DNA from: Salminus brasiliensis
Lineage: Eukaryota; Chordata; Actinopteri; Characiformes; Bryconidae
Direction: 5' to 3'
DNA: 64,000 nt
Assembly: GCF_030463535.1 (NCBI RefSeq)
Contig: NC_132879.1
Span: 35,884,425 to 35,948,424, forward strand
The notes beneath the pieces are model-generated. The model saw only the letters and a list, made by a program, of their open reading frames with translations. It had not been told where the DNA came from and made no database searches. The translations under genes and the position numbers were made by a program. Position 1 is the stretch's first letter. Each line of letters begins with the position of its first letter. Of this stretch, positions 1 through 57,325 are shown in pieces.

Positions 1-1049
1 CAAAGTGACACACAGTGCAGATACTGCTTCATATTATAAATCATCATTCATATTTGTTCCACATATCTGTTATCTACTGTATATAGATCTATACATATCT
101 ATATTCCAACCTCAGGTGTGCACGCTGGACTACAGGTGAATTGTGAAGGCACTTGGCTTCTGATCTGGCTGAAGTCGTAAATGGCCAGTACAGTGTTCTC
201 CAGCTCTGCTTGTGCAGTGAATACTCCCACCCAGAGAAGCGGAGATCCAGAGGAGATAACAGCAGATGACAGGAGCTTTCGACGGGGTTCATCATCACAG
301 CACTGTAACTCTGCACCTTTCAGAGATTTGGTCATATCTGATTTGCTGTGACTGTTCTCCATCCTTAAGACCATCACTGCTGCATCTGCTTCAGGGTTAA
401 CGTTCACCAGCAGGTACGAGTGAGAGGGAGATGATGTCTGGAACCCGTCAACCCACTCAACATCTCCTTTTGGTGAAATGTTGGCTATTGAGTCAGTTTG
501 TGATCTTGAGAAGATTTCTCCTGGCTGGGAATCCAGAGTGTTCCTCAATGTCACACCAGTATCGTCAACAGATCCACAGATTGTCTGGTCAGTTTTCTTT
601 TTAACTTGGGCTTCATTCTCTCTGGCAACCAGTATATATGCACCATTTTCTGAGTTACGTTCATGAAAATCTACTAGAAAAGCGACAGATGATTCCTCCA
701 CAGACGGTCCAGCAGACACCCCCTCCCTGTAGATACTTCTGGATATATCATCTAGATCGAGAACTTCACAGTAGCCACAGTCAGAGGTCCCACAGCTGAT
801 CAGGGTCTTGTTCGCGTCGAAAGGCAGTAAAACAGTAAGTCTGTTGGGGTGTGTGTGGTTAGATATGTTCTTGTGTTTCTCCACTACTAGATCGTGCTTC
901 ATCTGGAGGAGCTGAGAGTCGGTCACAACGAACACTTTCCCGTTTCCAACAACAAAGTTCCTGATATCTCCATTAACGCTCTGCTCCATTAAAGAGAAAA
1001 CACCACTTCTAAACAACAGAAGAAGGAGTCCCACTAAAACTGTCCTCAT
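1..1049 (-). repeat. right end of a preceding tandem unit
   Basis: This segment is nearly identical to 27150-28198 and to 56277-57325. It carries exon 1 and part of intron 1 of plexin copy A, so at least one more unit, or the original gene body, lies to the left of the window. Whether copy A is complete cannot be judged here. Confidence 0.85.
111..1049 (-). CDS. plexin (C1-like) copy A, first coding exon only
   Basis: Plexins are cell-surface semaphorin receptors. This 939-nt exon (313 codons) encodes the N-terminal part of a sema domain. It starts with a hydrophobic signal peptide (MRTVLVGLLLLLF...), has the cysteine-rich motif CGTSDCGYCEV at about residues 86-96 (compare the CGS..G.CE motif of sema domains), and several N-glycosylation sequons (NIS, NHT, NKT). 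It ends at a phase-0 donor (GAG|GTTGGA). I chose the ATG at 1049 because it precedes the signal peptide and is shared by all three copies; an in-frame ATG at 1070 would add only MRLRSGK. The remaining exons lie off the left edge. Relative to copies B and C, amino-acid changes cluster at about residues 116-190. Assignment to plexin is firm from the homologous copies with downstream exons; the C1 subtype is a judgement. Confidence 0.8.
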
Positions 1050-1620
1050 TTTGCCTGAGCGGAGTCTCAAACGCAGAGTGTCCGTCTTCTCCGGGTGTGC
1101 AGCTGAGAGAAGATGATCACATCATCAAACCCGTCTTTGCTGAAAGTGGATCGAGGTGAGGACTTCCGTGTTATCTGGGTTTGCAGCATATCTTCAGTCC
1201 TCAGCAGATTAAAGTGTGCAACTGTTGAAGTGTGGGATCTTCATTGAACATGATGATGGTGGTTAAGCGTTGTTCCACATTCGGTATCATATCGGGAGAA
1301 TCCAGATTATTCTAGATAATCAAATAAGTCTCAGGCAAGTCTCTCATGTAGCTAACATTAATCTTTATATGACTCTGTTGCTGGAATTCATGGCTTGCGT
1401 TACTGATTTGGTTTTGACCACCCAGTGCTGCTCTCTAGTGGTGAAAAAAAATTAAAAAGCTTTAGGTGCATGTTTTTATTTTATAAAAAAGACACCTCAG
1501 TATGTCCAAAGTGAATAATTACATCATAAAGATGTTGTCCTCTATAGCATGTGCCGTTATTTTATTAAAACCATAATATTTCGCTCCCATTCTAAACGGC
1601 AAAATTAACTTTTTGTTCAC
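1050..1620. other. plexin 5' flank (A/B type), no gene
   Basis: This is the upstream flank of plexin copy A, shared with copy B (28199-28760) and absent from copy C. About 1130-1450 resembles 17025-17260 in diverged form, including the stretch around 'gatcttcattgaacatgatg' and 'agcgttgttc'. It presumably contains the A/B promoter, but I see no clear TATA or CRE element. Confidence 0.6.
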
Positions 1621-3818: not shown

Positions 3819-4403
3819 ATGAAAACTGACAAAGACCTTAAAGGTTTGGTCTACAAGGTAGTTGATAAAGGTTTTTTTTAGCAGGGTAAAGCTGGCCACA
3901 TCCAAAAGGCACCGCAACCGGGTGGACATTTCAATAATGGCATCACCTGCTTTTGTTCGTAAATTTCTGCCTCGAGAACTCGACATTATCCGATTAATAT
4001 ATCACCCTCACATTGTTGAGGTGCATGATGTTTTTGAGATGCCTAGAGGACGAGTGTTCATTGTGATGGAGGCTGCTGCAACTGATCTCAAGAAAAAGAT
4101 CCAGAAGCTCCATCGCGTTCCCATCACCCAGGCCAAAACATGGTTTTCCCAGCTCGTCAGTGCCGTGGCCTATCTGCACCAGCTGAACATTGTCCATCGA
4201 GACCTGAAATGTGAGAATGTCCTGCTGACTGCTGATGGCCAGGTCAAACTGACTGACTTTGGTTTAGTACGCTTTTCAACAACTGACCTAAGTCGTACGT
4301 TTTGGTGCACCTGAGGTTCTCTTAAAAAAAAGATCCAAAAAAAGGTGACTATGGAGCAAGGGCGTCACCGGGACCCTGTCTTTCAGAGACGTCAATAGGA
4401 ATA
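3819..4403 (+). pseudogene. TSSK-like kinase pseudogene, unit 1
   Basis: Closely related to the kinase gene at 11740 but broken. After the ATG at 3819 the glycine-loop region is frameshifted and hits a stop in 'ttttttttagcagg'. The VAIK segment with the catalytic lysine is deleted or altered (NRVDISIM in place of NVAIKIMDRTL). The middle is intact (FVRKFLPREL, HRDLKCEN, DFG), then a deletion of about 16 bases after RTFWC removes the start of the activation-segment RYAAPE motif and everything beyond is scrambled. An acceptor-like 'catctacag' lies just upstream, so it arose by DNA duplication with flanking intron sequence, not as a processed copy. No catalytic activity is expected. Confidence 0.85.
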
Positions 4404-7810: not shown

Positions 7811-7837
7811 GGCCACCATTCTGTGTTCTTCAGGAAA

Positions 7838-7935
7838 TATAGCAACCACCTAGCAACAACTCGTTATAGCAGCCACACAGTAACAGCATCACCATTACAA
7901 CCACATAGCAGCCACTTAGCAACACCAAAGCACTT
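7838..7935. repeat. degenerate 'agcaaccacctagcaaca' minisatellite, short allele
   Basis: Several imperfect copies of a roughly 20-base unit built on 'tagcaaccacctagcaac'. In unit 2 the array covers about 36775-37010, more than twice as long. Confidence 0.7.
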
Positions 7936-8044
7936 TTTTCTATAATTATACATTTTATTTTTTGTTTATGTATTTCCACATTTCATCTCCATTTTATGTA
8001 TTAAAACATCTACAGAATTGCTGGCCTCACTGTATTAAAATATG

Positions 8045-8210
8045 TCTTAAAATATCTAAAGAACTGCAGGCCTCACTTGCCTCAGTTGAGGTCTATATAC
8101 AAGATTTCACAGTAAGAGGGTCACTGGGCAAAAATGGCATCCATGGGAGAATTGACTTGAAGTCCACTTCCGAATGGCTCCAAATAATTAAAGTGACCCA
8201 GTCTGAAGGA
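8045..8210 (+). mobile_element. degenerate Tc1/mariner fragment, unit 1
   Basis: The segment 'ggcctcacttgcctcagttgaggt ... gggcaaaaatggcatccatgg ... tccacttccgaatggctcc' follows the order of a fish Tc1-type transposase gene with a large internal deletion. No usable reading frame survives. Identified from memory of the family, so only moderately sure. Confidence 0.5.
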
Positions 8211-8299
8211 GATGACATAACTGTATCTGTTAGAGCAAAATCATGGATGTCACACATGTTTTATTATTATTTTACAAAACAGACCCATGTTTATAAAGA

Positions 8300-9480
8300 G
8301 TAGCACACTAACAAGGACACAGATTACTTACAATTGGCCTCTACCTGTGGAAGTTGTAAAATCAACAGAGAATTTTGGCTTTGAAACTTAAACTTAAAGA
8401 ACTTTTACTTTGCTGGTGTTCAACAATAATACTGACTGGAACATTGTGTAATCGATGCTAAACCAATGATGCAAGGGAGCTGAGTGATTTTCCAAGGCAC
8501 CATATTCACTGAAATGCACATTTTATAACATGTGATAAATTTTCTGGTTATACTGTCCATGTCCCAAAGAACTTGTTGTTGGAATAGCTGGAAATGAAGG
8601 TCTTGTGTTTGGAGGCTATCCAGGAAATGTAACTGTCAGTAATTGTCATCACGTTACTGAAAACCACTACTGTAACAAATTTATTCTAGCGATCTGGAAT
8701 AAAAACACCAACTATGTGTTATTTTTTACATGAATAAAACTACGTAAAGTTAAAAATAGCAATGTTTTCATAAGCAGCAGAATTTTCTAAAAGTCATTTT
8801 TATTTTTCATTATTGACAGACTAGTAACAGACCTTTTTTTCTGATTTATCAAGATCATAAAAGGTCAACTAGTCAGTTATAAGATTGTCAGTTACAGCTG
8901 TACTGTAGTGTAAGGGTGTTGTTTGTGTAAGAATGCTGGTGCAAATTGGCTGCTTTAGTTTCAGTTGTTTAGTATCAGTTGTGTTTCTGTTGTTTTTATG
9001 CTGCTTTCTTTGGTTTGCATGTTTCTTGTGATGTTTGCCCATTTGTTGCAAGTGACTTTTGTTCATGTCTTTGTAGCTGTAGGAATTTCTGAGCCAGCTG
9101 CATGTATTGCTCTTCACTTCAGCATAGATGTTTACGCTGGTCCGCTGTGGAAGTTTCACTAGCCCACTGTTGGTGTGGCTCTGCATTGAAACGATGATAT
9201 TTTGTCAGCCTGCTGTCAAAGCTGTGTACAGTAAAAGAAATGAAAACAACTAGAATTTAACAATATTTAATCTTATGTATCTCATTCAAATGATCAGTTC
9301 CACTGCTGCATCATTTAAGGTTAAAAGAAATGTTGAATAAGAAGCTGACAAATAAGAACCCAACTAAAAAACTTAAAATACATAAGTACAAACTTCTGAA
9401 AACAAACAAACAAAAAAAACACGTTTTGTTACACTGCAACTGATGCAGCAGCTATCTTAACTTAAACTGAGTAACCAGGA
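8300..9480. other. intergenic stretch, nothing recognised
   Basis: AT-rich sequence that is almost the same in unit 2 (37385-38500). The frames present (for example 8869-9186 on the - strand) have no recognisable domain and are not convincing as genes. Confidence 0.5.
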
Positions 9481-9485
9481 CCCAG

Positions 9486-9877
9486 TGTCATGCCGGGTCA
9501 GGCGGGGCAGTGAGAACACATGGAAACACTTGCAGGGTTGGACAATGCAAAACAACACAAGGAATCACAGAAACGCAGTACAGCAGAGGTACAGCAATCT
9601 AAGGGTCATAACGTGAAAACAGACAGAACTTGACAACACTGTCTGGGCAACGCAAGACACCTGGGACTGGGAGGGCTCTGAACGGTATAATAGGGAATAC
9701 ATGAACTGGGCAAACATGAACTGAGGGGCAGAGCTAATTCAGGGCAACGACAGACTGAAACACCTTGGCTTAAGAAGCCCCAGTCCCAAGTGTTTGTTGT
9801 CTACTTAACGACCTCCGGAATCCCGATTCCTTAAATGGGCAAGGGGGCGGAGTCTGGGGATCGCCCCGGGCCTGACA
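9486..9877. mobile_element. solo LTR (392 bp) with 5-bp target duplication
   Basis: Begins TGTCATGCC and ends GGCCTGACA (5'-TG...CA-3' ends). It is flanked on both sides by CCCAG (9481-9485 and 9878-9882), a 5-bp target-site duplication as made by Gypsy- or Pao-type integrases. No internal retroelement sequence is adjacent, so this is a solo LTR left by recombination. The copy in unit 2 has the same length and the same flanks. Confidence 0.75.
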
Positions 9878-9889
9878 CCCAGATATTCT

Positions 9890-11480
9890 TTCTCCGCACT
9901 GTTCCCTTACTATGGGATCAATTTCTACTATGCTGCTTATGTTCTGACAAAGAAAATGTTTTAGCAGATTCATTTTTTAAATGAACGAGTTTTAACAATT
10001 AAAAACAAATTGAAAACATTTGTTTTAAACTAAAAACATCATCAATTTCAACTGAAATATGGATCTTCACTGAGATGTTAGTAAATACTATTTAAAAAAC
10101 TTAAATGTTAAATTCTGAGTTTTAATCGTGTAAACAGCAAGAAAGGGTCACGCTAAAATAGCCTTTATACAGTACAATCAACCTACACCCAAAAGTCCCG
10201 CCCATGTCGTGTTTTCATTGGTCCGATACTCTGTCACTCAGTGGATTCCCCCTTCTGCCCCCCTGCAGTCTTTTTGCAGCACAGCTTCTCTATTTATTAT
10301 TACTCTTCATTTAGTTCAGTCTGACTGACTGGAAAACCTGAAAATACACATTTCTAATCCTAATTAGTGTATTTTTTTACTTGTAGGTATTTCATTAAAA
10401 AAATCCACAAATAAAACCTAGATTTTCCAAATAAGACTAACAATTATGTCATATCTGTGCAGTAATAATAATACTCGTTTTATGTAATTTTGAAAATGTA
10501 TTTTTTAGTACTGAAACATCAATAATGAAGATGAAGAAAAATAAAATTTCTATAGTTATTCTTATTATTATATATTTTTACGTCAGTAGTAGTAATTAAA
10601 ATGTTTCAATACAATAACAAATCAACACAAAAACAAATCCCTCCGTTATTCTAATTAACATTTATATTGTACATTATATTTATTCTTAATAATATTTGTT
10701 GTTGTTCTTCTTCTTCTTCTTCTTCTTACTATTATTATTATATATGTTATATATTGTAGAATATTGGATTATTATATATATTATTATATTATATCGTATA
10801 ACGTAGTTATTTTCTGGGGGGGGGGGTCGTTTTTTTTATAAAAAGTTTAAAAGTTTAAAAGTGGGCATGTCCCAGTGAAAGCGAGAGATTGTGTGTGTGT
10901 GTGTGTGTGTGTTATATTCACTGGTTGCCGTTTTGACAATGGGCAAAGCTTTCCTTTGCAGACAGAAGGATGAACAGTGTTTACAGCCACTGCACAGCGG
11001 TACAGCTAACTTCAGCCTCCCCGTACATTTAACTTCACTGTGAGTGTATCAGTACCCCGACCCTTCAAAGCCTTCCAATAAACGTTGATTCAATGGCAGA
11101 AGTTCAACAAAAACTGATGCCTATGAGAGTTTATTTAATGTTAATTCTTATCTGGGTTCACTTTCGGGGCTGCATGCCATCAAATCCTCCTCTCAGAAAT
11201 AATGTTTAACATCGTTTGGCGGGACCGCATTTGGATTCAGGCGTTGCTACGGGTTACCAGCAATCACCTTTTCACAGGAATTATTTGCATTTAGGATAAC
11301 TTTAAATAAATGCAATCATTCATAAGAAGTGTGTGTTTGATTAGGTTTATTTTCATCTAAAATAATTATGTACACATATTTAATTACAGAGGAAGTGCAG
11401 AAGGAGGGCAAATACTTTTTCACAGGTCTGTGTGTACCTACACTAGGTTAAAGTGTAAGGTCCACTGTGTCTGAGATACA
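9890..11480. other. upstream region of kinase gene, unit 1
   Basis: AT-rich with simple repeats: (CTT)n near 10705, a G tract at 10816-10826 and (TG)n at about 10891-10912. About 11260-11432 ends in 'gggcaaatactttttcacag', typical of the right terminus of a Tc1-type non-autonomous element. No coding sequence seen. Confidence 0.5.
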
Positions 11481-11524
11481 CTGTGTGTACAGACAGTCAT
11501 ATACACTCAGTGGAAGCTGAGGAG

Positions 11525-11590
11525 CAGCCAATCGGCCCTGCCATTGTGACGTCACGAGGTTGACGTCACGCTCCTATAAAAAGGCGCGGC
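11525..11590 (+). promoter_or_regulatory. kinase promoter: CCAAT box, two CREs, TATA box
   Basis: CCAAT at 11528-11532, two perfect palindromic cAMP-response elements TGACGTCA at 11547-11554 and 11561-11568 (14 bp start to start), and TATAAAAAGG at 11575-11584. This predicts transcription start near 11605, about 135 bp before the kinase ATG at 11740. Full CREs beside a TATA box are typical of CREM-driven postmeiotic germ-cell genes, which fits a TSSK. Tissue specificity is inferred. The block is identical in unit 2. Confidence 0.85.
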
Positions 11591-11739
11591 GCTCTCTCAC
11601 TGAGCCAGTTAGGATTCAGCACCTTGAAAGACGGTTGATTCCTACGTGCACACTGACACTGAGGTCATCTGATTGATGCTCGTATCTAGAGCCACTTCAT
11701 TTAGAACCAGATATTAAGGATCTAGATCCACAGAGAATA

Positions 11740-14309
11740 ATGGACACCGACAAAGACCTTAAAGGTTTGGGCTTTAATGTAATTAGTGACCTTGGTGAAG
11801 GGGTTTTCAGTAAGGTCAAGCTGGCCACATCCGAAAGGCACTGCAACAATGTGGCCATTAAAATTATGGACCGCACATTGGCATCACCTGCTTTTGTTCG
11901 GAAATTTCTGCCTCGAGAACTCGACATTATCCGATTAATATATCACCCTCACATTGTTGAGGTGCATGATGTTTTTGAGATACCTAGCGGACGAGTGTTC
12001 ATTGTGATGGAGGCTGCTGCAACTGATCTCAAGAAAAAGATCCAGGAGCTCCATCGCGTTCCCATCACCCAGGCCAAAACATGGTTTTCCCAGCTCGTCA
12101 GTGCCGTGGCCTATCTGCACCAGCTGAACATTGTCCATCGAGACCTGAAATGTGAGAATGTCCTGCTGACTGCTGATGGCCAGGTCAAACTGACTGACTT
12201 TGGTTTAGTACGCTTTTCAACAACTGACCTAAGTCGTACGTTTTGGTGCACTCCTCGCTACGCTGCACCTGAGGTTCTCTTAAAGAAGCCTTATGATCCC
12301 AAAAAGGCTGATGTATGGAGTTTGGGCGTGATCCTGTACGTCATGGTCACCGGGACCCTGCCCTTTAGAGACGTCAGTAGGAAAAACATCCCATTTCTCC
12401 AGCGAGAAGCACTGACGTATCCAGACGGGATCAGAGTGGAGCAGCCCTGTCGCTCCTTCATCTCGTATATGCTGCAGTATAAACCCGAGAGACGTCCTAC
12501 AGTGGCAGAGGTGGCAGCACACCCATGGCTGCAGTTGACACAAGAACCGTAAGTATGAATTTGCAGGTTTATGTATATATATGAACTGCATTTTGGTTAT
12601 ATTCTATTTTATAGATTGTGTGTAAATCAGATTATATATGTGTGTGAACATACACTTAACTGTATTTTCATCAACAGATCTCCGGAGGAGAATGTGTTTG
12701 GAGCTCGGTGCAAGAAGGACATTCAGCAGCAGCAGCAGCAGCAGCAGCATCAGACTGCTGAAGTTGATGTGAAGGAAACAAAGGACGATTCATCCACAGT
12801 CAGCTGTCTTCACTCGTCTGTAACCGATGCCTTTACACAGGACACCACTAATTGTTTGGAGAAACCCATCAGGTATGTTTGTTTGTTTGTTTATTTAGTT
12901 GTTGTTTACACACTATTCATGAATTTCTTTACTAATTAATATATTTATTATTATTGTGTATCTTGGCTGCCACCATTAAACCTCTCAGTCTGGCAACACC
13001 CGTACAAAGGATGCACACTTTGTGTATTGTACATATTATGCACTGATAAAGGTCAGTTTAAATGAAGACCTTTTTTTTGTAAATATGAAACAGGTAAAGT
13101 ACAGTAACACTTCACTAACAATAAGTTAATAATCAAAGATGACTCATTTTCCACATTTATTCTCTACCATCTCCAGACTTACAGGCAGGTTTACTGTGGT
13201 ACCCGTCGATGAAGATGAGGGAAGTAGGAGTCATCCAGATTCCGAGCCACTCCAGGAAGATGACGGCAGTAGAGCTGGTGCAAGTCTGACTTGCAGAAGT
13301 GTAGAAGGTGTGGAGGAGGAGTATGGCTGCTTCAGCTGTGCTCCATTTTGTGCTGCACTTAAAAGAGCAGCTAATGCTTTTGTTGTAGCTCCAATTTTTT
13401 AGAGGCTCCCAGTCACTGGAAGCTGAAGAAGTGCTGCACAGGTAACTCTGTGGTGCCGGACTCCTCCTCTTCTTCCCAGCAGGATGCTTGTCATTCTGCT
13501 CCCTCTACAGAAGCTCCTGCTTGTTCATTTTCTGAGCCAAGAAGACAAGAAGATGGGACTCCAGACATTACGCTCTGTGGGACAGTGGTTGAGGAGAAAG
13601 CTGACCTCCCACAGCCCACGCTGAAGGAGGAAACCAGGAGGTTGAGATTCCCCCACTTTAAGGTATGTGATTTGAGTGCTGGGTGATTGTAAAAGCCTCA
13701 GATTTCAGACCATAACATCACTTCAAATATCAAATATAATAATGTTTCATTGGATTAATCTTTTTCATCTTTTCCCTCCAACAGATCCTGAAGAAAAAGA
13801 TTCACCCTTTTTAAACGCGGCGAAAATCCTGGGAATGATAAACTGGTTGGGTTCAATTCTGAAGGGAAAGTCCCGCTCCGTGGGCCGGTGGTGGAGGCAG
13901 ATCCTGGTCTCCCACAGCTCACAGTGATGCAGGAAACAAGGAGGCCGACGCTTCGGCTCCCCCTCAAATTATTCCAACAGAATTTCAACTTTAAGGTATG
14001 TATTATCAGTTATCATTAATACACACATTCATTCTGACCAGTGGTCTTCATTTATACACATGCTTTAGATTTTAAACCACCTTCTTCATGGTTTAATCTT
14101 TTCTAAATAACTGTAACATTTCTATTATTCAGGTTGGAGGAGTGAAGCCAGAGGAGAGAGCCCGGGAGAGAGAGGCTGTAGGAGAGAGCCTAGAAAAACG
14201 TGGCCGGAGGAACAAACCTGGAGGAGTGAGTCTGGAACAGCAAGAACAGAGGAGCTGTGAGCCCAGAGGAGTGAGCGTGGAAGAGGACGAGCCTGGAGGA
14301 GTATTCTAA
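11740..14309 (+). CDS. TSSK-like serine/threonine kinase, unit 1
   Basis: TSSK-family kinases phosphorylate sperm proteins during spermiogenesis. Exon 1 (11740-12548) holds the whole kinase domain: glycine loop GEGVFSKV (residues 19-26), VAIK lysine 41, helix-C Glu 60, HRDLKCEN (133-140), DFG (153-155), AAPE (175-178) and PYDPKKADVWSLGVILYVMV, strongly TSSK-like. The activation segment reads TFWCTPRYAAPE where TSSKs usually have TFCGSAAYAAPE. Exon 2 (12678-12872) encodes a polyglutamine run from (CAG)8 at 12724-12747. Exon 3 starts at 13177. The tail is uncertain: in this copy a 1-nt insertion relative to unit 2 gives a stop at 13400-13402. Further open blocks at about 13450-13662 and 13785-13995 and a clean terminal frame at 14133-14309 suggest more tail exons. 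AATAAA at 14341-14346 probably ends the transcript. Confidence 0.8.
13785..13995 (+). other. duplicated tail-exon block of kinase gene, unit 1
   Basis: Flanked by a good acceptor (ccctccaacag) and donor (AAG|GTATGT). It is homologous to the preceding block ending at 13662: RSVGQWLRRKLTSHSPR-stop against RSVGRWWRQILVSHSSQ-stop in one frame, or VVEEKADLPQPTLKEETRR against VVEADPGLPQLTVMQETRR in the other. This is an internal exon duplication. In the frame joined from the previous exon (phase 0) it hits a stop after ILKKKIHPF, so it may be a decayed or skipped exon. Skipping it joins the flanking blocks in frame. Confidence 0.5.
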
Positions 14310-14340
14310 AGGAGTGAGCTGGCGGAGCATCTGTGTTTAC

Positions 14341-14346
14341 AATAAA
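14341..14346 (+). terminator. polyadenylation signal AATAAA of kinase gene
   Basis: AATAAA 32 bp after the stop of the terminal tail frame (14307-14309). The same arrangement is at 43315-43320 in unit 2. Confidence 0.6.
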
Positions 14347-14565
14347 TTAAGAGCAGTTCTGCATTGCTGATGTTCTGGATGTTTCTTTTTTAAAGAGTAA
14401 AACTGGTGTCTGAGCTCTGAGGATATAACTTGCTCAGAATTTAGCTCCCATTCCGAGAAATGAACCAGATACACCCATGTCACAAGGCACCAAAATCCCA
14501 TCTTTAGCATGTTATAGAATAACTATTATTGTTAATAATTAATTTAAGGTGTCACCTTTTAAATG

Positions 14566-16703: not shown

Positions 16704-16709
<6 letters not shown>

Positions 16710-16760: not shown

Positions 16761-16764
<4 letters not shown>

Positions 16765-18473: not shown

Positions 18474-20311
<1,838 letters not shown>

Positions 20312-40600: not shown

Positions 40601-40750
40601 CGCTCTCTCACTGAGCCAGTTAGGATTCAGCACCTTGAAAGACGGTTGATTCCTACGTGCACACTGACACTGAGGTCATCTGATTGATGCTCGTATCTAG
40701 AGCCACTTCATTTAGAACCAGATATTAAGGATCTAGATCCACAGAGAATA

Positions 40751-43283: not shown

Positions 43284-43314
43284 AGGAGTGAGCTGGCGGA
43301 GCATCTGTGTTTAC

Positions 43315-43320
43315 AATAAA
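43315..43320 (+). terminator. polyadenylation signal AATAAA of kinase gene, unit 2
   Basis: AATAAA 31 bp after the stop of the terminal tail frame. Confidence 0.6.
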
Positions 43321-43546
43321 TTAAGAGCAGTTCTGCATTGCTGATGTTCTGGATGTTTCTTTTTTAAAGAGTAAAACTGGTGTCTGAGCTCTGAGGATAT
43401 AACTTGCTCAGAATTTAGCTCCCATTCCGAGAAATGAACCAGATACACCCATGTCACAAGGCACCAAAATCCCATCTTTAGCATGTTATAGAATAACTAT
43501 TATTGTTAATAATTAATTTAAGGTGTCACCTTTCAAATGTACTAAG

Positions 43547-44755
43547 ATAGGATAAGATAATCCTTTATTAGTCCCACAGTGGGGAAATTCACAGCAGAAA
43601 GGGATAGCAAGACACTCAACACAAAAACATAGATAAATAATATACACTATATACACAATATAAATAAGAAGTAAAAAAGCAATAGCAATATTATTTACAG
43701 ATTATTGCAAATTACTCTTAATTGCACATGTGGGAGGGGGGAGGTGGTGGTATTGCACATAGTATTTTTACATTGAGGGACCTCTGTTCCCTGAACATGT
43801 GTGTAGTTAAGTGTGTGTGTGTGTGTGTCTGTGTATGTGGTCTGCCGGGAGCAGTGCTGGTTGTGGAGTCTGATGGCAGCAGGAAGGAAGGACCTGCGAT
43901 ACCGCTCCTTCACACACTTGGGGTGAAGCAGCCTGTCACTAAAGGAGCTGCCCAGTGCTGCCAGAGTCTCATGCATGGGGTGGGAGCTGTTCTCCAGCAT
44001 GGATGCCAGCTTGAATGTCATCCTCCTGTCTCCCACCACCTGCACTGGGTCTAAGGACCCCAGGACAGAGACGGCCCTCTTTATGAGCTTATTCAGTCTT
44101 TTCTTATCTGCCGTCGAGATGCTATTGCCCCAGCAGACCACTCCATAAAAGATGGCAGATGCCACCACTGTGTCGAAGAAAGTCCTCAGGAGTGCTCCCT
44201 GCACTCCAAAGGACCTCAATCTCCTCAGTGGGTAGAGTCTGCTCTGGCCTTTCTTGTAGAGTGCAGCAGTTTTGACTGACCAGTCCAGTTTGTTGTTCAG
44301 ATGAACACCCAGGTATTTATAAGAGTCCACACTCTCGAGGTTCATATCCTGGATGTTCACTGATGGAGGGGGGTGTCTGCACCTGCAGAAATCCACCACC
44401 AGTTCTTTGGTCTTTCCTGCGTTTATCTGGAGGTGGTTCTGCAGACACCACTCCACAAAGTCCTGGATAAGTTCTCTGTACTCGCTGTCCTCCTCATTGG
44501 TTATGAGGCCGACGATCGCTGAGTCATCAGAGAACTTCTGGAGGTGACAGGTCGGTGATCTGTACGTGAAGTCAGCAGTGTACAGGGTGAAGAGGAACGG
44601 TGCCAAAACTGTTCCTTGAGGGGCTCCTGTGCTGCTGACCACCATATCGGAGACACTGTCCCAGCTTGTCCTTCAGGAGCCCTGGCTGTATGGTGTTAAA
44701 AGCACTGGAGAAATCGAAGAAAGTGATCTTCACAGTGCTGCTAGGCTTCCCCAGG
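43547..44755 (-). mobile_element. Rex1-like LINE, 5'-truncated, unit 2
   Basis: Counterpart of 14566-15790 but with one unbroken frame of 316 codons (44645-43695) covering the FSDD catalytic box (FSDDSAIVGL), FVEWCLQNHLQINAGKTKEL, KYLGVHLNNKLDW and FLPAAIRLHNQ. It lacks the 5' endonuclease half, so it cannot transpose alone. Confidence 0.85.
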
Positions 44756-45669
44756 TGAGAAAGAGCTCTGTTTACTAAGCACTGTCTTTATGTAATAAAC
44801 TGTTTCAAAAAGTAACAGTCTTTTAAGGTTCTTTAGTAATACTTACAAGAAATCTTATTTTATTTTTGATTACAGTGGCCTTATTTCCACTGCAGAGCCA
44901 AATGGTAACTAAGGCTGTGCCTTACTGCTCCGCTCCTGTTCTACATATTCGCGTTGCTAAATCAGAATGAGGACGTGCACAACGTCTCTTATATTTATGC
45001 AACAGTCTCTTTCTTCAGTCTTGCACTACAAGTACAAGGCTACTGTAGCTATATGCAATCTGCATGTATGAATCATATTCGTATCAAACCATGCCAAGGA
45101 GGCAATTTTTAAAATGTTGTATGGCAAATCATTTTGGAATTCAGTTAAACACAACGAAGTGATAACTTCAGCACATAGTTAAGCTAACAACACTACATAG
45201 ACAGATACACTATATTGCCAAAAGTATTAATTCACCCATTCAAATCATTTTGAACAACATGGGAATTCCATGGGAACACCCGAAGCTGCAGGCCTATATC
45301 CGTTTACTATGGCAGTCACAATCCACATGCTTTTTCGTTATGAGGGAAGATTTTATGCTATATTAAATTGTGATGCAAAAGTGATGCAATTTTGAATAAG
45401 AGAGATGTCTACATGTGTAGGAAAGGTAAGAAACCTACTTGTTTCTGATCATACACCAGACATGGACAGGGTCTAGGGAGGCTCTGCAGTCTCATAGACT
45501 GCTGTACACACTTGTTGTCACTTGCTAATTAGAGAGCTTGGAATCAGTCCTGCTATGAAACTGGACACAGACACTGAAGACGTTCCTGCTTCAGCAGACT
45601 TTTAGCTCAATTTAAAACACTGTCACTGTACTATTCTGCAATGGCATGTTCTCATTCTTATCTTTAATA

Positions 45670-45719
<50 letters not shown>

Positions 45720-47427
45720 TAGTATTCCTTTCTTGTTAATTATTGATTTTTTTTTAGCTTAATTTGTAATGCTTTTAAAATATTGTCTTTGCTTTTACTG
45801 TTTTTATGTCTTTGTATTTTCATTGTTTATGTAAAGCACTTTGAATTGCCACTGTGTATGAAAGGTACTTTACAAATAAACCCGCCTTGTTGACGGAGTG
45901 GTTGAGGCAGGCCGCATGTGCAAAAGGGCGTAGGCAAAACACAGCTGATCAGGTTCTTAATCACGTTGCAGTAAAATTGTAATATTACAGTTCTGTGCTG
46001 AAAGTGGATGGAATGTGAGGACATCTTTAGTCATCACCAGCGTCCAGATTATAGTGCCCAGATCTTATTGTGAGATCTTCATTAAACATGATGGCAATTA
46101 AGCGTTGTTCTACTTTAGGTATCACCTTAGGTATGGTCAAGACATACCCAAAGAATACCCAAAGTTTGTGCCTTCTAAAACTGCTTTAACAACTCAGTGC
46201 TGCTCCCCAGTGATGCCACTACGATACTGAGAACTGGGGTTAGTTTATGTTGGTTTCTATCTCTGTGTCTGTATGTACCTTTCCTGTATGTACCTTTCAC
46301 AACAAAAATCAGTATAGAAAAATCTATATAGAATATAACATTAGTTTGTAGCTGGAATCCATTATTGTTCAATTCCTTTTAAAACAACTATTTGTCTTTT
46401 GTCTTTAAATATCAGTAGATAATAAAAGTAGATAATCAAATCTGCTATTTAAAACATTAAATATATTATTATTGTTGTTGTTGTTTTTGTTGTTGTTGTT
46501 GTTTTCTTCTGTTCCACTATTTTCTTCTTATTAATAGTATTCACAGTTGATGTTTAACAGACAGTTTTCAGTCATCTCCAGAACAAATTACAAAATGTCT
46601 CACATGACTACTACACAACTTTACCACAATGCAATGACAGCAGTGTCAATTATTATACAACATATCATTTCAATGAGGTTTATTTAAATAACCAGTGTCA
46701 CAAGCCATTTACACACAACGTAATCCCAAAACATGAGACAATAAGCAGCCCTTGCCTAATTATACATTTTGTAATTTTTTTAGTGAAAAGAAGCTGCATT
46801 AAGAACAACCATAAGCTTTTGAATGCAGCTGGTTAAGGATCTGAACTGAATTAGTGGTGCACCGTTCTACTATGCAGCACTGCTTACACAATCATAATCT
46901 CCAAGTACCCTGACTTAAGCATCATTCACAATCTGGGGGTGGATCTGAAACATAATGTGCATTAAAAAGGCCCCGGATATCCCTGAACTAGAAGCATTGT
47001 ACAGGAAACAGTGGTTGACAACTGCTAAACCATACAAATCTAAAAATACAGACTGTACATATAACTATTATACACAACAATCAACAGTAACAAACACACA
47101 AATATCTAAACTAAGGACAAGAACAGGAAGATCAGATCTTCATTCTTACAGGATACAAGGATTCAGGGCAAATCTTTCACACAAAATAAACTGACTGTGT
47201 TTCTCACTTCTGTTTCCAGTACTGTAGAAAAATCACCAACACTGATCTAGAACAAACCAAACAAAGAGGTTAATGAAGAAACAGGTAACAGAATAAAGAA
47301 CAACTGCTGATGTTCTGTGCTCGACTTTGCTTCATATTTTTATTCAACTGAACAAACTCACTATAATGTCTTAAATATGTTGTTAAAGGACCTTATTTAA
47401 AAATATGTATATTATATATGTATTATA
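44756..47427. other. intergenic stretch with small mobile-element debris, unit 2
   Basis: Counterpart of 15791-18473. It includes the Tc1-type terminus near 45205-45290, (AT)n at 45671-45714, the diverged plexin-flank copy at about 46000-46220, and the unrecognised frame at 46955-47194. Confidence 0.5.
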
Positions 47428-49215
<1,788 letters not shown>

Positions 49216-49799
49216 TATATGTATATGTATATATGTACTTATATAAAATATATGTATTTATATGTATGTATATTTATTAATATGTCTTTTTGCCCCCACA
49301 GTTGCTGAGTGTAATTAAATTTTACACAAATTCACACTTTGAGCTCCCCCTTAATGACAGCTGTACACATGCATTTGTTGACAAGCTGAAGGATTCAGAA
49401 CCTTGAAAGAATCTTGCCGACTAATGTGGCAGAGTAGTGTTACAGGATTTCACACAAATATGACAAATAGGGTTAAGCAGTTCTCCCAAGAGCCCCTCTG
49501 CAGCTCCACCGAAGTTACCAAGTTCAGTAGCAGCATTCCCAGAGGCAAAATTATACCATAGAAAATTATGTTCAAAGCTGTTGTTTTTTTTTTAGATAAA
49601 ATTGCTATGAAGCTATTGCTACTACAATGTGCCCTTTGACTATGGGTACCCAAACGTTTCAGAAATGTGGAATCTAGTACACTAACTGATCTAAAAGTGT
49701 GTATAGCTATTTCAACCTGTTATAAGTCTGTACTGTTACAGAGAATAAAGACATTGTCAGCACTGGACTCAATCTTTACTGTCGCACATTCAGACTGCA

Positions 49800-49862
49800 A
49801 AGAGAAATAAAATCAGAATCAGAAATACATTATTGATCCCAGGAGAGAAATTGCAGAAGACT
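49800..49862 (-). mobile_element. short LINE 3' tail at end of plexin copy C
   Basis: Same as 20880-20955, directly downstream of the last plexin exon. Confidence 0.6.
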
Positions 49863-49868
49863 GGTTAC

Positions 49869-52800
49869 CTTGAGTGAGGTTACATTTATGCTGACGTCCT
49901 GCGTTCCCACAATGTTACAGATGATAGCAGTGGATATAACTTTCTGTCTCACACACTCAAACTGCTTCTCTTCCTGCAGACCCCACACCTTTACATCATC
50001 ATCCCTCATATTCAACCTGTCTTGCTTTTTCTACACAGCCAGAGAGAGAAATAGTTCAGCATTCATGTCTAAGAATAAGTGAATCTGTGTTCTGTTAAGC
50101 AGCTTTTATGTCTTTTAAGAAACTTACATTAATGAAAACCAACACATCATTAAATTCCAGAGAGGTGGAGAAGCTGATGAATTCTGGATCTGGGAAGGTA
50201 ATGAGTGTATCTACACAGTCCACTGATGAGTTTCCCACTCTGAGAGAGACACTGAATGACCCATAACCCTCCCCTACCATGAGAGGAGGAGTGTTAAACC
50301 ACAGACCCTGATAGAGAGAGGGGATTAGTGTAATACATGTAATATATTTCATAAGTGGAATAAAATTAAGTACAATAAAGATGAAGGACAGTAGTAAGCC
50401 TGCAGATATTTTACCTCACTGCTTTGGCTTGACCTGACACCGATTTCTTTTTTATTCACTATGATGTTTTCAACGTACTGCAGACTCGTCCCCAGCACTT
50501 GAATTGTCCTCCCCCCACTGATGGACACATATTAAATGTCAAACATGCTGTCAGCAGCACTGCAGCAGGAAACCGTTTCTATTTTAGTCCGACAACAGTC
50601 CGAGTGCTCAGATCAACATTATAGAAAAGAGGAAGACTCAAAGAACAGACAATAAGCTTTCTGCAGTAAAAACAAGAGAGTATTACATCATCTGACTTTT
50701 GGGTAATTTTGTTCTTTACCTGGCCCAGGTGATTCTAGGCTGCAGTCCAGTACATGTGGGCTGGGGGCCATATGTGATGGTGGTTTTGCTGTGACAACGG
50801 CTGTCTGCTGTGACCACACACACCATTGCATTTCCTTTATGTCCACTCGGAATATTGAACTTCAGAGTGTCACTGGAGCGCTCAATCACTGGCGTCCTAG
50901 AAACAACATATACATAACCTTGTAAACACATATATACACACAGTTATGTACATACAAGTGCATCTACAAAAATATGACAAATATATATTGAAGAGTGACA
51001 CTCACTCTTTTGAATCACACTCCTTTAACCATTGGAAATTAATTTTCATGACTGATTCCAGATTTTTCCCTCTTATTATTGCATTGTTTTTTCCATGAAT
51101 GGAGACTTGATTAGGCCACAAAGACATGATCTCTGGCTGATGATGGTAATAAAGAGAGGACAACATTAGATGCTTACTATGAGATCAGTTACAAACTGCA
51201 CATTTAAGACATGGTAGAATAAGAGCACAAGTATAGAGAGATTGCACTAGGTTCCTTAAATCTGTTAACTGCATTGCTCTCTGGGCCTATCATGATAATT
51301 ATTGAGTTATCATACAATATATAGACATGACCTAGATGATTTATGCTGACCTCAGTATTGCCCAACATTGTGTTTACTTGCATATGTACTGTAAAATGTC
51401 ATCACTCAGTATAGTGAGTATCAGAACACAGCCACTAACAGCACAAAAGGCGAATGGTCAATCTTTAAATGACAATGGTAATACATAGAGCATGATCACA
51501 CATCTAAAGTGACATCACTCTGGTGTTTCAGTGGAGAGCAAAGTTTGTCTCCCTTTTTTTTTGACTCAAAAATATGATCTGTTCTGAATTGTGAGTTTAA
51601 TCTATTACACCTTAAGCAACAGGTGAAGACGTGTTACTCAAACTAATAGCTGTTTTTCTCCCAAAGAATACATAATTCCAGCCAGAAAGTTTGGAAGTTA
51701 AGTCTGAAGACACTTGGTTTTACGGATCTGGTGTAGATCTAAACATTTTGGCTTTCAGCAGAGTGAGCGAGGAGAGCCAACTTAGTTTAAAAACAGTGTT
51801 TTTATATTATTCACATTTTATTTACTTACTAAATTGAAACATTTGAAATTACAATTTCAATGTCTGAATAATCCTAACTATGAAAAAAGTTCCTTAAAGG
51901 AAAAAATGTTCCTTAAAGGATGTAATTGCATTATTACAATTTATCGTCCAAAAAATAGTTATCATGACAGATCTATTGCTCCCTTTACAGGGTTAAATGC
52001 CTTAAGTCCTATAAAGTTGTCTTTGTTAGTGCTCTTTAAAGTTCTGGATTGGTGAGCCTCAAACTAATCCTTGCTGTAAAAGGACTAGGCTTTCTAGGTT
52101 TCTAGGCATTTATCAACAATCAAGTCGATTAAATAAAACATGAAATTTACAAAAAGATTTTCTACAATTTCTTTTTGCATTCAAGTAAAAATAATTGTAT
52201 AAATGACTGCATGACTGCAGGTCATTTTATAGTATGAGCAAAACTACACGAGATGTATAAAAGGCAGCAATAGAATTTATTATACTTAATAAAAAATGTG
52301 TCCTCCACATTTAACCCATCTGTGGTAGTGAACATACACACACACACACACCCAGAGCGGTGGGCAGCCAACTCCAGCGCCCGGGGAGCAAAGAAGGTAA
52401 AGGGCCTTGTTCAAGGGCCCAACAGTGGCTGTTTGCTGAGGCCGGGAATCGAACCCACAACCCTGTTATCAATAGCCCGGCACTCTAACCGCTGAGCTAC
52501 CACTGCCCTGTAAAAAACTAATGTTGCAAAATGAAACAACAGAAGACCTGAGCACTTTTCACCCACACTGTGCTCAGCTTCCTTTTTAACCCTCAACTTC
52601 CCCCCCTGACAGCCAAAGCATTAATTTCCACTAATGCTGTGAGAGTTTACTTACTTTATATTCCACAGTCAAAAACCCTTTACATATTTCCTACAGAGAA
52701 AAGAGAGTTACAGCATTTGTTATTAATGTTTGGATTGTGGCTGTTTAAAAAAGCAAGACTGCTTCTAATAAAGAGGTTTCTTGCCTTTGCTTAGTCAGCA

Positions 52801-55800
52801 ATCCACAAATCATTCAAATCAAGAGTTACACTAAATTTAGAGATGCACAGAGCTACATTCACAGCAATACATAGCATAGAGCACATTATAAATATATATG
52901 ACATTTTAAAAGAAATGAAGTGGCAGTGCCTCTGCTCAGTCTGGGTGTATGTAAGAGACTGTTACACAATCTTACCTGAATGTCTGCCTGTGGTTCAGAA
53001 CCATTAGTCCAGCTGCACTCCTGACTACTTGAGGACCAGTAACACCCTGCTGCGACACATGCTACACACCTGCATATAACATATACAGCACATCCAACCC
53101 CCAAGAGCAAAATCTTAACAGACAAATGTGCTTTCACTCTGAAATGTTGGATATTTAAAGACTGAACAAGTTTTAGAGTAGACATGCTGTGCATGTGTAC
53201 TGACAATTTCACCTGAAGCGGCCCTACATGCCACAAACTGTCCAGTCTGATTACAAATCCTGTCTACTGATCCAAATCCTCTTACTTAGCATATGGAGAG
53301 GTATCTTTGATGTCTGGGCATCTCCTCAGATTCAGGATCTCTGTGATTTTCTGATCTCCTACAGTGACCGCTGCTGTGACTCTGAGGCCTGGATATGAAA
53401 AGATATCACTGTCTAGCTGCACATGTTGAGTTATGTGATTTCTTGTGTGCTGTGAAAATATATCACTGTGCATTGTGCACTTTACACAAATTAAGCTGTT
53501 TGATTTTGTCTGAGCTGTGTTTGACACTAAATGTGTCAAAGGTAAAAAAAAGTATAAAGATAGGCTAAACTGTGAATGCACTGACCTTCAGGAGGCAAGC
53601 GCTGGATGGAGAAGTTGCAGGAACAGCTGGGGAATTTTGAGACAGGATTCTCACACAGATCCACATGTTCTGCCTTCATGCTACACTTTAAAGGAGGGCG
53701 GCCTGAATCCTGTGCACTTAGGTAGAGATTCAGACTGACCTGAACAAGAGCAGAGCAATAGGTGAGAAATGGTGTCATATATATATATATCAAAATATAT
53801 CAAAATATATCAAAAAAAGAGATACCAATAATGTACCTCTTCGGAGATCGCAGCTACTTGAAAAGTAATCAAGTCTTTCTGAAGTACATTTTCAGGAATG
53901 GAGATCCAAGTGGAGTTCAAACACTCATCTAGAGTAGAGCACCTACAGTGATCAGTGAAGGAGAGAAGTCAACACCCACTCGTTCTTAGCCCCCCCTAGC
54001 ACTAGCAATGCTCCTTATACTAGGAGGGTAAGGACTTAACATTGCCACCGCCTCTTTTCGAACTACCGCCATTGTGGAATGCTGTGCAGCCAACACGCTC
54101 GAAGGAAAGCACCAGGTCCCCAGCTCTGACATACCAGCTATCAGATGTCTGTGCCAACCAACATCACTAAGAATGTTAGGCCCTGGACCACAGTAGTAGT
54201 GCATTAGACCACTGAGCCATTTGGAGCCCCCAAGATTTACCGCCCACAATTTAACATAACAAACGAGTGCCGGGGAGCAGAGGGGGTACATGCCGGGCAT
54301 GTGTGCTCACTGTCACTGTCTGTGTGTGTGTGTTTACTGCCCAAATGGGTTAAAGCAATCTATTCATTAATAATGGAAAAGCTCAGTGCCTCAAACTAAT
54401 TCTAAATTTCAGTAAAAGGCTTGGGGAGCAGAGGGGGTACATGCCGGGCATTTGTGCTCACTGTCACTGTCTGTGTGTGTGTGTGTGTGTCAGACAGCAT
54501 ATGAACTACTGTGTAGGCTTTAGCTATAGCTGACAATGTCTACATATAAATGAATGTTGAATATCAGTCATTATAGAGTGTGCCAAATAAAGACTGAGCA
54601 CAGCCATGCCTATAAAATGGTTATCACAAGTCCTAAGCTTATTTGGTATTTTTACAAGGTAGACACCACAACTCTCCCATACAACATATGCCTTATATAA
54701 CATATATGGGTTATCAAACTGAACATTCAGTGTGCACGAGAGCACATGTGGAAAGAAAAGATGAGAAACCTACTTGTTTGTGGTTATACACCAACCACAT
54801 AGAGGGTCCAGAGATGCGCGGCAATCTATCAAACTGCTGTACACACCACACTGAGTCACAGCCACCCGCCTAATCTACACAACACACAAACACACTCACC
54901 CATAGAGACTCACTCAGACATCACACATACACAGGTGTATCATGGGTATGTCTGATATGTTAAGTGTAACACTAAACATATCAGATACATAGATAGTAGG
55001 TGTACAGTTCTACCACTTACTTGATTTCTCAGAGCGATGTAAATGTAATTATGATCCACTGGGTCAAAGTGCATTCTGGGAAACACCATTCTGTCATAGT
55101 CAGATCTGTACAGTTCTGTTGCACGGCCACAATTAAAACCCTTATCCAACACCACCTTTCAACATCCAAAACAAAGAAAATAGAAGTTATAACAATAATT
55201 AAGTAATTAAGATTAACATGAATATACACTGCTTATATTAGATTTATTCACTTCATAACCACCTCATAACCAACACTGATTTTCTCTCATTTTTTCTACA
55301 TAACCCATGGCTTGCTCTTCAATTACTGTTTCCCATAATTTTACTTCCCATCGCTTTACTTCTGTCTTATCCTGCTGGAAGATTGCCCGCTGATGTCCCC
55401 TCTACCTGCGTCAGACCAGCTGCCACCTACCAGTCTGACCATCAGGCCCCCCACCCACCACCACCCATACCAGACCAGCGGCACAGCTGCTACCTGTTTA
55501 ATGACCATGTTAAAACCTAAATAATACCACTATTAACTATCTGTTGTATCTGGTTTGGTCATTTTTATCATTAATGTTCAAATAGTTCTAACCAGAGGAG
55601 GATGGTTTGGGTCCCCCTTGTGAGTCTTGGTTCCTCCCAAGGTTTCTTCCTCCAGCTCTGAGGGAGTTTTTTCTTGCCACTGTCGCCGTTGGTTGCTCAC
55701 TGGGGGTCTTTCCTTCATGTCTTACGTCACTTATTTTTTGTCTCTGTCTTTTACTAATTACTAATTGGATGGATTTAGCTTTTGGGGTTTTAGTTTCTCT

Positions 55801-57325
55801 CAAGGTTTGGACCTCCTGTTCTCACATAGTTTTTCCACTCCACTGTCACATTTAGCTTGCTCAAACTCAGATTTCAGAAAATGAGCTTTGTGACAACGGC
55901 CATTGTGAAAAGCTTAAAACAAATATTTTTGATTTGAAATCTGAAAGCTGATCTCTAAATAACATATGAATACCAACTGGCTAACAATTAAATACATACA
56001 TACATACATACATATACACATAGATATTCAGACAAATACAGAGAAAATATAATATTACTAGTTACAAGACCTTCATCAGTTGTCCATTATTAGTTCCAAT
56101 GTAGATCACAATCCAGGATCCTTTCTTCTCTGCTGCTACAGAGGTCATTGAGCTGTGTCTTAACACCACAGCACGAGGAGCCAGAACAGCATTTCCCCCC
56201 TACAGAGACACAAAACATCACGAGCATTAGAAATGTCCAATACTGATCTATTTAATCTGATTCTAAATGCTGAAGACAAAGTGACACACAGTGCAGATAC
56301 TGCTTAATATTATAAATCATCATTCAGATTTGTTCCACATATCTGTTATCTACTGTATATAGATCTATACATATCTATATTCCAACCTCAGGTGTGCACG
56401 CTGGACTACAGGTGAATTGTGAAGGCACTTGGCTTCTGATCTGGCTGAAGTTGTAAATGGCCAGTACAGTGTTCTCCAGCTCTGCCAGCGCAGTGAATAC
56501 TCCCACCCAGAGAAGCGGAGATCCAGAGGAGATAACAGCAGATGACAGGAGCTTTCGACGGGGTTCATCATCACAGCACTGTAACTCTGCACCTTTCAGA
56601 GATTTGGTCATATCTGATTTGATGTTACTGTTCTCCATCCTTAAGACCATCACTGCTGCATCTGCTTCAGGGTTAACGTTCACCAGCAGGTACGAGTGAG
56701 AGGGAGATGATGTCTGGAACCCGTCAACCCACTCAACATCTCCTTTTGGTGAAATGCTGGCTAAAGCTGAGGCTTGTGATTTTGAGAAGATTCCTCCTGG
56801 CTGGGAATCCAGAGTGTTCCTCAATGTCACACCACCATCGTCAAAAGATCCACAGATTGTCTGGTCAGTTTTCTTTTTAACTTGGGCTTCATTCTCTCTG
56901 GCAACCAGTATATATTTACCATTTTTAGGGTTACTTTCATTAAAATCTACTAGAAAAGCGACAGATGATTCCTCCACAGACGGTCCAGCAGACACCCCCT
57001 CCCTGTAGATACTTCTGGATATATCATCTAGATCAAGAACTTCACAGTAGCCACAGTCAGAGGTCCCACAGCTGATCAGGGTCTTGTTCGCGTCGAAAGG
57101 CAGTAAAAGAGTAAGTCTGTTGGGGTGTGTGTGGTTAGATATGTTGTTGTGTTTCTCCACTACTAGATCGTGCTTCATCTGGAGGAGCTGAGAGTCGGTC
57201 ACAACGAACACTTTCCCGTTTCCAACAACAAAGTTCCTGATATCTCCATTAACGCTCTGCTCCATTAAAGAGAAAACACCACTTCTGACCAACAGAAGAA
57301 GGAGTCCCACTAAAACTGTCCTCAT
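49869..57325 (-). CDS. plexin (C1-like) ectodomain gene, copy C, 13 exons
   Basis: Exons on the - strand: 57325-56387, 56199-56071, 55155-55021, 54874-54774, 53942-53837, 53739-53586, 53388-53286, 53069-52976, 51130-51006, 50896-50720, 50517-50415, 50307-50128, 50030-49869; 2508 nt, 836 codons. Borders and phases are as in copy B; exon 6 is one codon longer (CENPVSKFPSC against CEKVSVFPSC). Domains are as in copy B. Outside exon 1 only a handful of residues differ from B. The 5' flank is different from copies A and B, and an in-frame ATG at 57397 would add 24 residues before the signal peptide; I prefer 57325. No transmembrane or GAP exon is seen downstream. Confidence 0.8.
52300..52511 (-). 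mobile_element. tRNA-derived SINE in plexin intron, copy C
   Basis: Counterpart of 23425-23633, slightly more complete (B-box-like 'gggttcgattcc' on the - strand). Confidence 0.75.
55370..55935 (+). mobile_element. LINE 3' region in plexin intron 2, copy C
   Basis: Contains 'gagggagttttttcttgcca', 'ctgtcgccgttggttgctca' and 'gctttgtgacaacggccatt', the familiar 3' untranslated region of an L2-like fish LINE. Unit 1 keeps only the last 220 bp, in a rearranged flank. Confidence 0.65.
56387..57325 (-). CDS. plexin copy C exon 1 (signal peptide and N-terminal sema)
   Basis: 313 codons. In the variable segment (about residues 116-190) it is a mosaic: the start matches copy A (VEESSVAFLVDF) and the following NESNPKN matches copy B, which suggests conversion between copies. 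ATG at 57325-57323. Confidence 0.8.

Follow-up and report, generated by a model that had tools for sequence, protein, structure and literature searches.

An array of five plexin-C1-type genes

We analysed a 64,000-nucleotide stretch of the Salminus brasiliensis genome (contig NC_132879.1, here C2, C2:35884425-35948424; the window), which covers part of a tandem array of plexin-C1-type genes interspersed with protein kinase genes. All results come from one assembly (1.07 Gb, 103 contigs), and 250 kb of C2 around the window were read for comparisons across the array; coordinates without a prefix are those of the window. The cluster contains five plexin-C1-type genes, P1 to P5, with P4, P5 and exon 1 of P3 inside the window and P1 and P2 outside it. 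From the left, the order is P1, P2, P3, a degenerate kinase, kinase 1, P4, a degenerate kinase, kinase 2 and P5. Exon 1 has five copies genome-wide, all on C2, and all 57 ectodomain protein matches among those listed fall in C2:35.809-35.942M. The plexin first exons in the window are at 111-1049, 27260-28198 and 56387-57325, on the minus strand. The plexin genes in the window are as follows:

111-1049, minus strand: exon 1 of P3, a full-length plexin-C1-type receptor; open, with the remainder left of the window (C2:35863243-35884424)
20815-28198, minus strand: P4, a predicted secreted plexin-C1-type gene, 14 exons, 861 amino acids; gene model with 13 of 13 introns GT-AG
28198-27260, 27072-26944, 26299-26165, 26022-25922, 25100-24995, minus strand: P4 exons E1-E5
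24853-24703, 24510-24408, 24191-24098, 22231-22101, 21991-21815, minus strand: P4 exons E6-E10
21612-21510, 21402-21223, 21125-20964, 20889-20815, minus strand: P4 exons E11-E14
49720-57325, minus strand: P5, a predicted secreted plexin-C1-type gene, 14 exons, 862 amino acids; one frame, 0 internal stops, GT-AG introns and a TAA as in P4
53388-53286, minus strand: P5 exon E7

Self-alignment of the window matched 7832-26397 with 36904-55253 (18.7 kb, 96.6% identity), 1-2571 with 27150-29673, and 1-1052 with 56277-57328. Kilobase repeats at 96.6% identity are beyond chance. The window consists of two head-to-tail units of 27-29 kb and exon 1 of a third plexin gene. In homologous aligned blocks of non-coding DNA, the P4 and P5 units differ at 290 of 21,245 bases (1.37%), and each carries insertions of its own. 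A sequence-only reading of this DNA had described two such units, with a plexin on the minus strand and a kinase on the plus strand, and self-alignment and open reading frames bore out its coordinates and strands. It had also seen the end of a third unit; a plexin exon 1 does lie at the left edge, but it belongs to the full-length receptor P3 and not to a kinase-plexin unit. Beyond that account, each unit holds a second, degenerate kinase copy.

For P4 and P5, the later Sema and PSI exons were located from frame scans, and splice signals were read by eye on the minus strand. Intron phases are consistent in both genes, with a single reading frame throughout. Exons 1-13 join into one frame without an internal stop in all five genes (832, 830, 830, 837 and 838 codons in P1-P5), and every intron has GT-AG. 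In P1-P3, the search accepted exons only with AG and GT, in the correct phase and with a length within 40 nt; the splice sites of these three genes are thus a condition of the search and not an independent result. The plexin had been taken for a receptor fragment; the complete 14-exon ectodomain models of P4 and P5 rule out a broken fragment.

The best match of P4 in PDB is human Plexin-C1 (E 5.9e-52, 179.8 bits, in two stretches over residues 83-836 of 861), and other plexin classes score 62.6 bits or less against the ectodomain. On the spliced plexin, TIG and PSI pass the Pfam cut-off and Sema narrowly misses it (21.2 vs 23.7). A Sema-PSI-IPT order closest to C1 identifies a class C ectodomain. 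A cysteine pair linking Sema and IPT2, human Cys412/Cys703, is described as specific to the Plexin-C1 class in the accessible text of PMC7181871, and a by-hand alignment reading finds cysteines at both positions in P1-P4. Exon 1 alone has 0 Pfam families, and its PDB match to Plexin-C1 is weak (E 0.23), ranking under spurious matches to designed proteins and viral fibres. Because exon 1 by itself is barely recognisable, the identification needed the spliced model. A search for relatives in viral contigs confirmed none.

One member with a signalling tail and four without

The five genes differ in how they end. In each of P1-P3 one exon encodes a helix of strong hydrophobicity (Kyte-Doolittle 2.95-3.26 over 19 residues). 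P1 stops after ...GALIYHGRRNN, 7 residues beyond the predicted helix, and P2 stops after ...VEVLVHCSNEYVPGTS, 11 residues beyond it. In P3 the helix is followed by a plexin-like juxtamembrane exon and then by matches to RBD and RasGAP (Plexin_RBD and Plexin_cytopl), with positions 33-176 and 262-420 of 441 of the GAP profile covered. Genome-wide there are 86 exon matches to PF08337, and those within the array all lie in P3 (C2:35863243-35876777). With four P3 pieces as queries, no second copy of its RBD/GAP was found in the 250 kb. None was found in the 9.2 kb downstream of P1 exon 13, nor for P4 on the minus strand of 1-28449 with Pfam or in 13451-28449 with PDB scans. A transmembrane helix together with RBD/RasGAP is found in P3 only; P1 and P2 have the helix only, and neither was found for P4 and P5. 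Because the RBD/GAP occurs in P3 only, the left edge of the window is the start of the sole signalling member of the array.

P4 and P5 have a TAA in exon 14 that ends the frame at the expected start of the helix. This end corresponds to about human residue 947 (P4 residue 836 is chain residue 888, or human 922, with an offset of 34 derived from the named cysteines), and the helix of human Plexin-C1 is placed nine residues past Tyr935 in the accessible text of PMC7181871. In P4, no stretch other than the signal peptide scores as helix-like above the chosen cut, and 441 nt downstream of the stop, at 20374, there is an AATAAA. Since the stop falls where the helix should start, P4 and P5 are predicted to be secreted. 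From these gene models, we conclude that P4 and P5 are plexin-derived genes and not signalling plexins.

The first two exons are homogenised between the genes

The segment of exon 1, intron 1 and exon 2 is 95-99% alike across P1-P5. For exon 1 as a whole, pairwise identity is 95.0-98.6%, and intron 1 has 187 bp in all five genes with 1-5 differing positions. In non-exonic sequence, P1 and P3 have few blocks that can be aligned with P4. When P1-P3 are compared with P4-P5, synonymous divergence (dS) in exons 3-13 is 0.58-0.65 and nonsynonymous divergence (dN) is 0.27-0.29; dS is 0-0.032 in exon 2 and 0.012-0.056 in exon 1 outside a variable patch described below. Within P1-P3 as well, there are fewer silent changes in exons 1-2 outside the patch than in exons 3-13. 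The homogenised block has the same edges in P1 and P2 (1288 bp, from 29 bases 5' of the ATG to 4 bases beyond exon 2), with an identity to P4 of 98.7% for P1 and 96.5% for P2. The block shared by P3 and P4 is 96.7% identical, its 3' edge off by one base and its 5' side longer. In a tree of exons 1-2, P1 and P4 are split from P2, P3 and P5 (support 100); in a tree of exons 3-13, P4 and P5 form a clade on a long branch (support 100). The block and the patch lie at these positions:

26940-28227, minus strand: the homogenised block as found in P4, running from 29 nt upstream of exon 1 through intron 1 and exon 2 to 4 nt beyond, and common to P1, P2 and P3
471-719, minus strand: patch in exon 1 of P3, codons 111-193
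27620-27868, minus strand: patch in P4, codons 111-193
56747-56995, minus strand: patch in P5, codons 111-193

The Sema propeller is the domain by which plexins bind semaphorins, and the first 356 residues are the signal peptide and most of this propeller. We conclude from the alignments and trees that the putative ligand-binding half, encoded by exons 1-2, is homogenised between genes of the array by gene conversion, so the five genes have near-identical first 356 residues. A second, independent trace of conversion is found in the degenerate kinases, where a 367-nt tract has 4 mismatches to kinase 1, with 28/121 and 17/91 in its flanks in the first unit and 28/121 and 19/92 in the second. Two hallmarks of a paired or decoy receptor family are found in this array: signalling-competent and signalling-dead members with a common binding domain, and gene conversion of that domain. 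Alignment of the 5' flank of P5 (57326-64000) to that of P4 breaks off 3 bases from the ATG, and P5 is therefore probably driven by a different promoter.

A hypervariable patch within the homogenised segment

Codons 111-193 vary far more than their surroundings. Across the five genes, the patch has 30 variable residues out of 83, and the remainder of exons 1-2 has 16 out of 273 (Fisher 5.6e-11, with patch limits chosen after the data had been inspected). A scan of exon 1 in the three window copies with a 240-nt window found 39 variable sites, compared with 28 or fewer in 10,000 random placements. In the patch, every pair but P1-P4 has dN above dS (9 of 10). Site patterns within it conflict, with groupings of P1+P4, P2+P3 and P3+P5, and 162 of 465 informative pairs are incompatible, as expected if short segments had been exchanged. 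Blades 3-4 of the plexin propeller bind semaphorin, a point of background that we did not use as evidence.

TSSK6-type kinases beside P4 and P5

The kinases of the two units are listed below:

11740-12552, plus strand: kinase 1, TSSK6-type, intact, 270 amino acids, one exon; possible spliced C-terminal exon at 12678-12872
40751-41563, plus strand: kinase 2, TSSK6-type, intact, 270 amino acids; possible spliced C-terminal exon at 41689-41877
11547-11582, plus strand: kinase 1 promoter, with two perfect cAMP response elements (CREs; 11547-11554, 11561-11568) and a TATA box from 11575
40558-40593, plus strand: kinase 2 promoter, with two perfect CREs and a TATA box
3819-4399, plus strand: degenerate kinase copy of the first unit, with a 367-nt tract 99% like kinase 1
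32388-32969, plus strand: degenerate kinase copy of the second unit, with the 367-nt tract as in the first unit's copy

Searched with the kinase protein (E 1e-5), the 250 kb yielded these four copies and no others, and all four lie between P3 and P5. The closest solved relatives of the kinase are TSSK6 (285.5 and 282.2 bits), with the next family at 160.5; TSSK6 is the sole TSSK among the 60 PDB matches listed, so this comparison does not set TSSK1-4 apart. The catalytic motifs are intact in both, which together with TSSK6 as nearest relative makes them TSSK6-type. Five non-silent and three silent changes separate kinase 1 from kinase 2 (98% protein identity). The kinase domain is contained in one exon; a splice donor GTAAGT overlaps the stop codon, and an open 3' exon with a CAG repeat follows. 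This possible second exon is in frame in both units, its CAG repeat differing by two glutamines (12724-12753 in the first copy and within 41689-41877 in the other).

Each intact kinase is preceded by a CCAAT, a pair of perfect CREs at a spacing of 14 bp and a TATA box. The sequence TGACGTCA occurs four times in the window, all in the two kinase promoters (expected 0.42; four reached in 0 of 100 shuffles). Promoters with CRE and TATA are typical of post-meiotic germ-cell genes. The CRE/TATA pair was absent from the 5' flanks of P3, P4 and P5, which were read for it. In the accessible text of PMC7401350, mammalian TSSKs are described as post-meiotic and knock-out of Tssk6 makes mice sterile, and on these grounds the kinases adjoining P4 and P5 fit germ-line expression. 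Their germ-line-type promoters say nothing about the plexins.

A genome-wide search returned 1,192 first-look candidates for this kinase family, of which 142 were scored, so the TSSK6-type family has at least 142 copies. They lie on C1, C2, C3, C5, C6, C7, C8, C10, C12, C14, C23 and C26, are 60-67% identical apart from the window pair, and have frames mostly open over the whole kinase. Many are in tandem; C2:32.61-32.86M, for instance, contains 22, and pairs are spread along C3:19.9-21.3M and along C5:32.4-37.6M. The two family members tested are also nearest to TSSK6. We sampled 20 loci by tblastn, dropping matches shorter than 240 residues; of the 30 full-length matches obtained, 11 are without DFG/DYG and 3 have a stop. 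A double CRE with TATA within 350 bases was found at one of the 20 loci (C1:82.5M), where C1:82499500-82502500 holds a 474-codon open frame with a TSSK6-type kinase and a double CRE/TATA as in the window kinases.

Plexin fossils and other repeats

Both units also hold a remnant of plexin exon 4:

16472-16540, minus strand: plexin exon 4 fossil with an in-frame stop, from an older, lost plexin copy
45441-45509, minus strand: plexin exon 4 fossil of the second unit

More exon 4 fossils are at C2:35858316-35858393 and, weakly, C2:35837516-35837647, and some fossils have stops. These fossils are traces of additional lost plexin copies. Between P1 and P2 there is a tandem repeat of about 3.2 kb in about four copies (C2:35821283-35831624), with a related stretch near P3 (C2:35855345-35856673). 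Mobile-element remains in the window include 3' ends of UnaL2-type long interspersed nuclear elements (LINEs; 19046-19099, 35246-35299, 47950-48003 and 59639-59692, the one at 35246 in the second unit only), LINE reverse transcriptase remnants (14803-15480, 43695-44672 and 29372-30013) and Tc1/Sleeping-Beauty-like transposase remnants at about 19.4-19.9 kb.

A possible receptor and decoy family, and its alternatives

We favour, with slightly better than even confidence, a reading in which the five-gene plexin-C1-type array comprises one signalling receptor, P3, and four signalling-dead genes that would serve as decoys. The proteins of P1, P2, P4 and P5 would bind the ligand of P3, either a semaphorin such as Sema7A or a pathogen's mimic of one, and compete with P3 for it, P1 and P2 as membrane-bound decoys and P4 and P5 as soluble ones. 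By gene conversion the decoys would stay in step with the receptor, and diversity in the patch would be maintained by selection or exchange. The TSSK6-type kinases would be part of the P4 and P5 units, duplicated along with them as passengers or local partners, and not the cause of the array. In the accessible texts of PMC7181871 and PMC3137789, PlexinC1 is the target of the viral semaphorin mimic A39R, which gives a decoy array a plausible driver. We also consider, more tentatively, a plexin recognition system in which P3 and the four decoys would use the converted exon 1-2 cassette with a patch reshuffled between genes, as part of an arms race for a semaphorin or for a mimic of one made by a pathogen, by analogy with the major histocompatibility complex and paired immune receptors.

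Several observations weigh against a family of matched and diversifying decoys. That the block has the same edges in P1 and P2 would also follow from a single old exchange between P1-P3 and P4-P5, without ongoing conversion. In the patch, dS is raised together with dN and the pairs are not independent; the raised dS means that the patch is no formal proof of positive selection, and together these points make old neutral variation possible. P1 and P4 differ at just 7 of 249 patch bases, with dN below dS, and a permutation test on the patch akin to the pairwise homoplasy index gives a modest recombination signal (p 0.017). The structure prediction for exon 1 has a mean pLDDT (predicted local distance difference test) of 33, and the patch is not placeable on the ligand face; the accessible portions of PMC7181871, PMC3137789, PMC8155012, PMC6695400 and PMC4892512 contain no usable list of PlexinC1-semaphorin interface residues. 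P5 has lost the Cys412 equivalent (C367R), and the cut tails could be decay yet to reach the ectodomain. Finally, the arrangement is known from one assembly.

An alternative is a set of non-adaptive tandem duplicates, produced by unequal crossing-over, with random loss of tails, conversion as a by-product, old neutral variation in a patch that escaped conversion, and no decoy function. The patch has dN/dS near 1 with dS raised as well as dN, the plexin fossils and degenerate kinases show that copies die here, and P5 lacks a conserved cysteine. We regard this account as rather unlikely. Across a dS of about 0.6 between P1-P3 and P4-P5, all four genes without a tail have retained 13 exons, their splice sites and the frame, which also stays open through their length differences. 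Further, dN in exons 3-13 is below dS in 10 of 10 pairs, at about half of dS between the two groups. An assembly artefact, in which uncollapsed haplotypes are stacked head to tail, draws on the 1.37% non-coding difference between the P4 and P5 units, but it would have to produce five plexin copies that are distinct in the patch, a dS of up to 0.65 between P1-P3 and P4-P5, unit-specific insertions and different 5' flanks. We consider it very improbable; uncollapsed haplotypes were what the sequence-only reading had named as evidence that would count against its repeat.

That reading likened the locus to the germ-line amplicons of sex chromosomes or meiotic-drive regions; on this view a testis kinase would be selected and the plexin would ride along. 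Its kinase side is strengthened by the TSSK6-type assignment, the double CRE with TATA and the family of at least 142 copies with many tandem arrays; its plexin side is better explained by a receptor and decoy family. There are five plexins but two intact kinases, so the cluster as a whole is not built by repetition of the kinase-plexin pair. P1-P3 have no adjoining kinase, save on the right side of P3, where the P4 unit begins with a degenerate copy and kinase 1. The variable, converted pattern is found in the plexins and not in the two intact kinases, and the large kinase arrays are elsewhere (C2:32.6M, C5, C3, C12). These facts make an amplicon driven by the kinase unlikely. Gamete recognition is another candidate, with P4 and P5 as secreted plexins expressed in testis or egg, co-regulated with the adjoining sperm-type kinases and diversifying by gamete coevolution. 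Neighbouring germ-line-type promoters and a locally hypervariable domain of binding type would suit it; given that the 5' flanks of P3, P4 and P5 are without the CRE/TATA pair and that the region upstream of P5 is unlike that of P3 and P4, we find it quite unlikely.

Relation to known systems and significance

The array resembles Plexin-C1 (PLXNC1/VESPR, the receptor of Sema7A and poxvirus A39R) in the order of Sema, PSI and IPT, in the cysteine pair of P1-P4, and in the RBD and RasGAP of P3. It is unlike Plexin-C1 in having five tandem genes, four of them without the cytoplasmic region and two of those without the membrane helix. Paired and decoy immune receptors, such as the CEACAM and KIR/LILR families, are kept similar by gene conversion. 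The likeness extends to signalling and non-signalling neighbours with a near-identical binding domain and to a variable binding region; the scaffold here is instead a Sema-domain plexin, with a putative ligand and a putative opposing function. The kinases are like TSSK6 (SSTK), a post-meiotic sperm kinase, in their kinase domain of about 270 amino acids in one exon with intact motifs, and unlike it in the donor over the stop codon, the conserved open 3' exon and the huge copy number. The accessible text of PMC7401350 has all mouse Tssk transcripts intronless save Tssk4. Ampliconic testis families of sex chromosomes likewise have tandem copies of germ-line-type genes, here at 98% protein identity, but the converted and variable gene in this array is the plexin. 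A limited search of the open-licence literature found no report of a plexin-C1 tandem array or of natural plexin decoys.

The TSSK6-type kinases, with at least 142 copies, form a second case, distinct from the plexins, in which a germ-line-type gene has been amplified to an extreme degree. Plexins are generally regarded as constrained guidance receptors. If the reading of P3 with four decoys is true, the array would offer a natural soluble plexin for tests, and the plexin family could evolve in the manner of paired immune receptors, with tailless or secreted neighbours that share and diversify the ligand-binding half.

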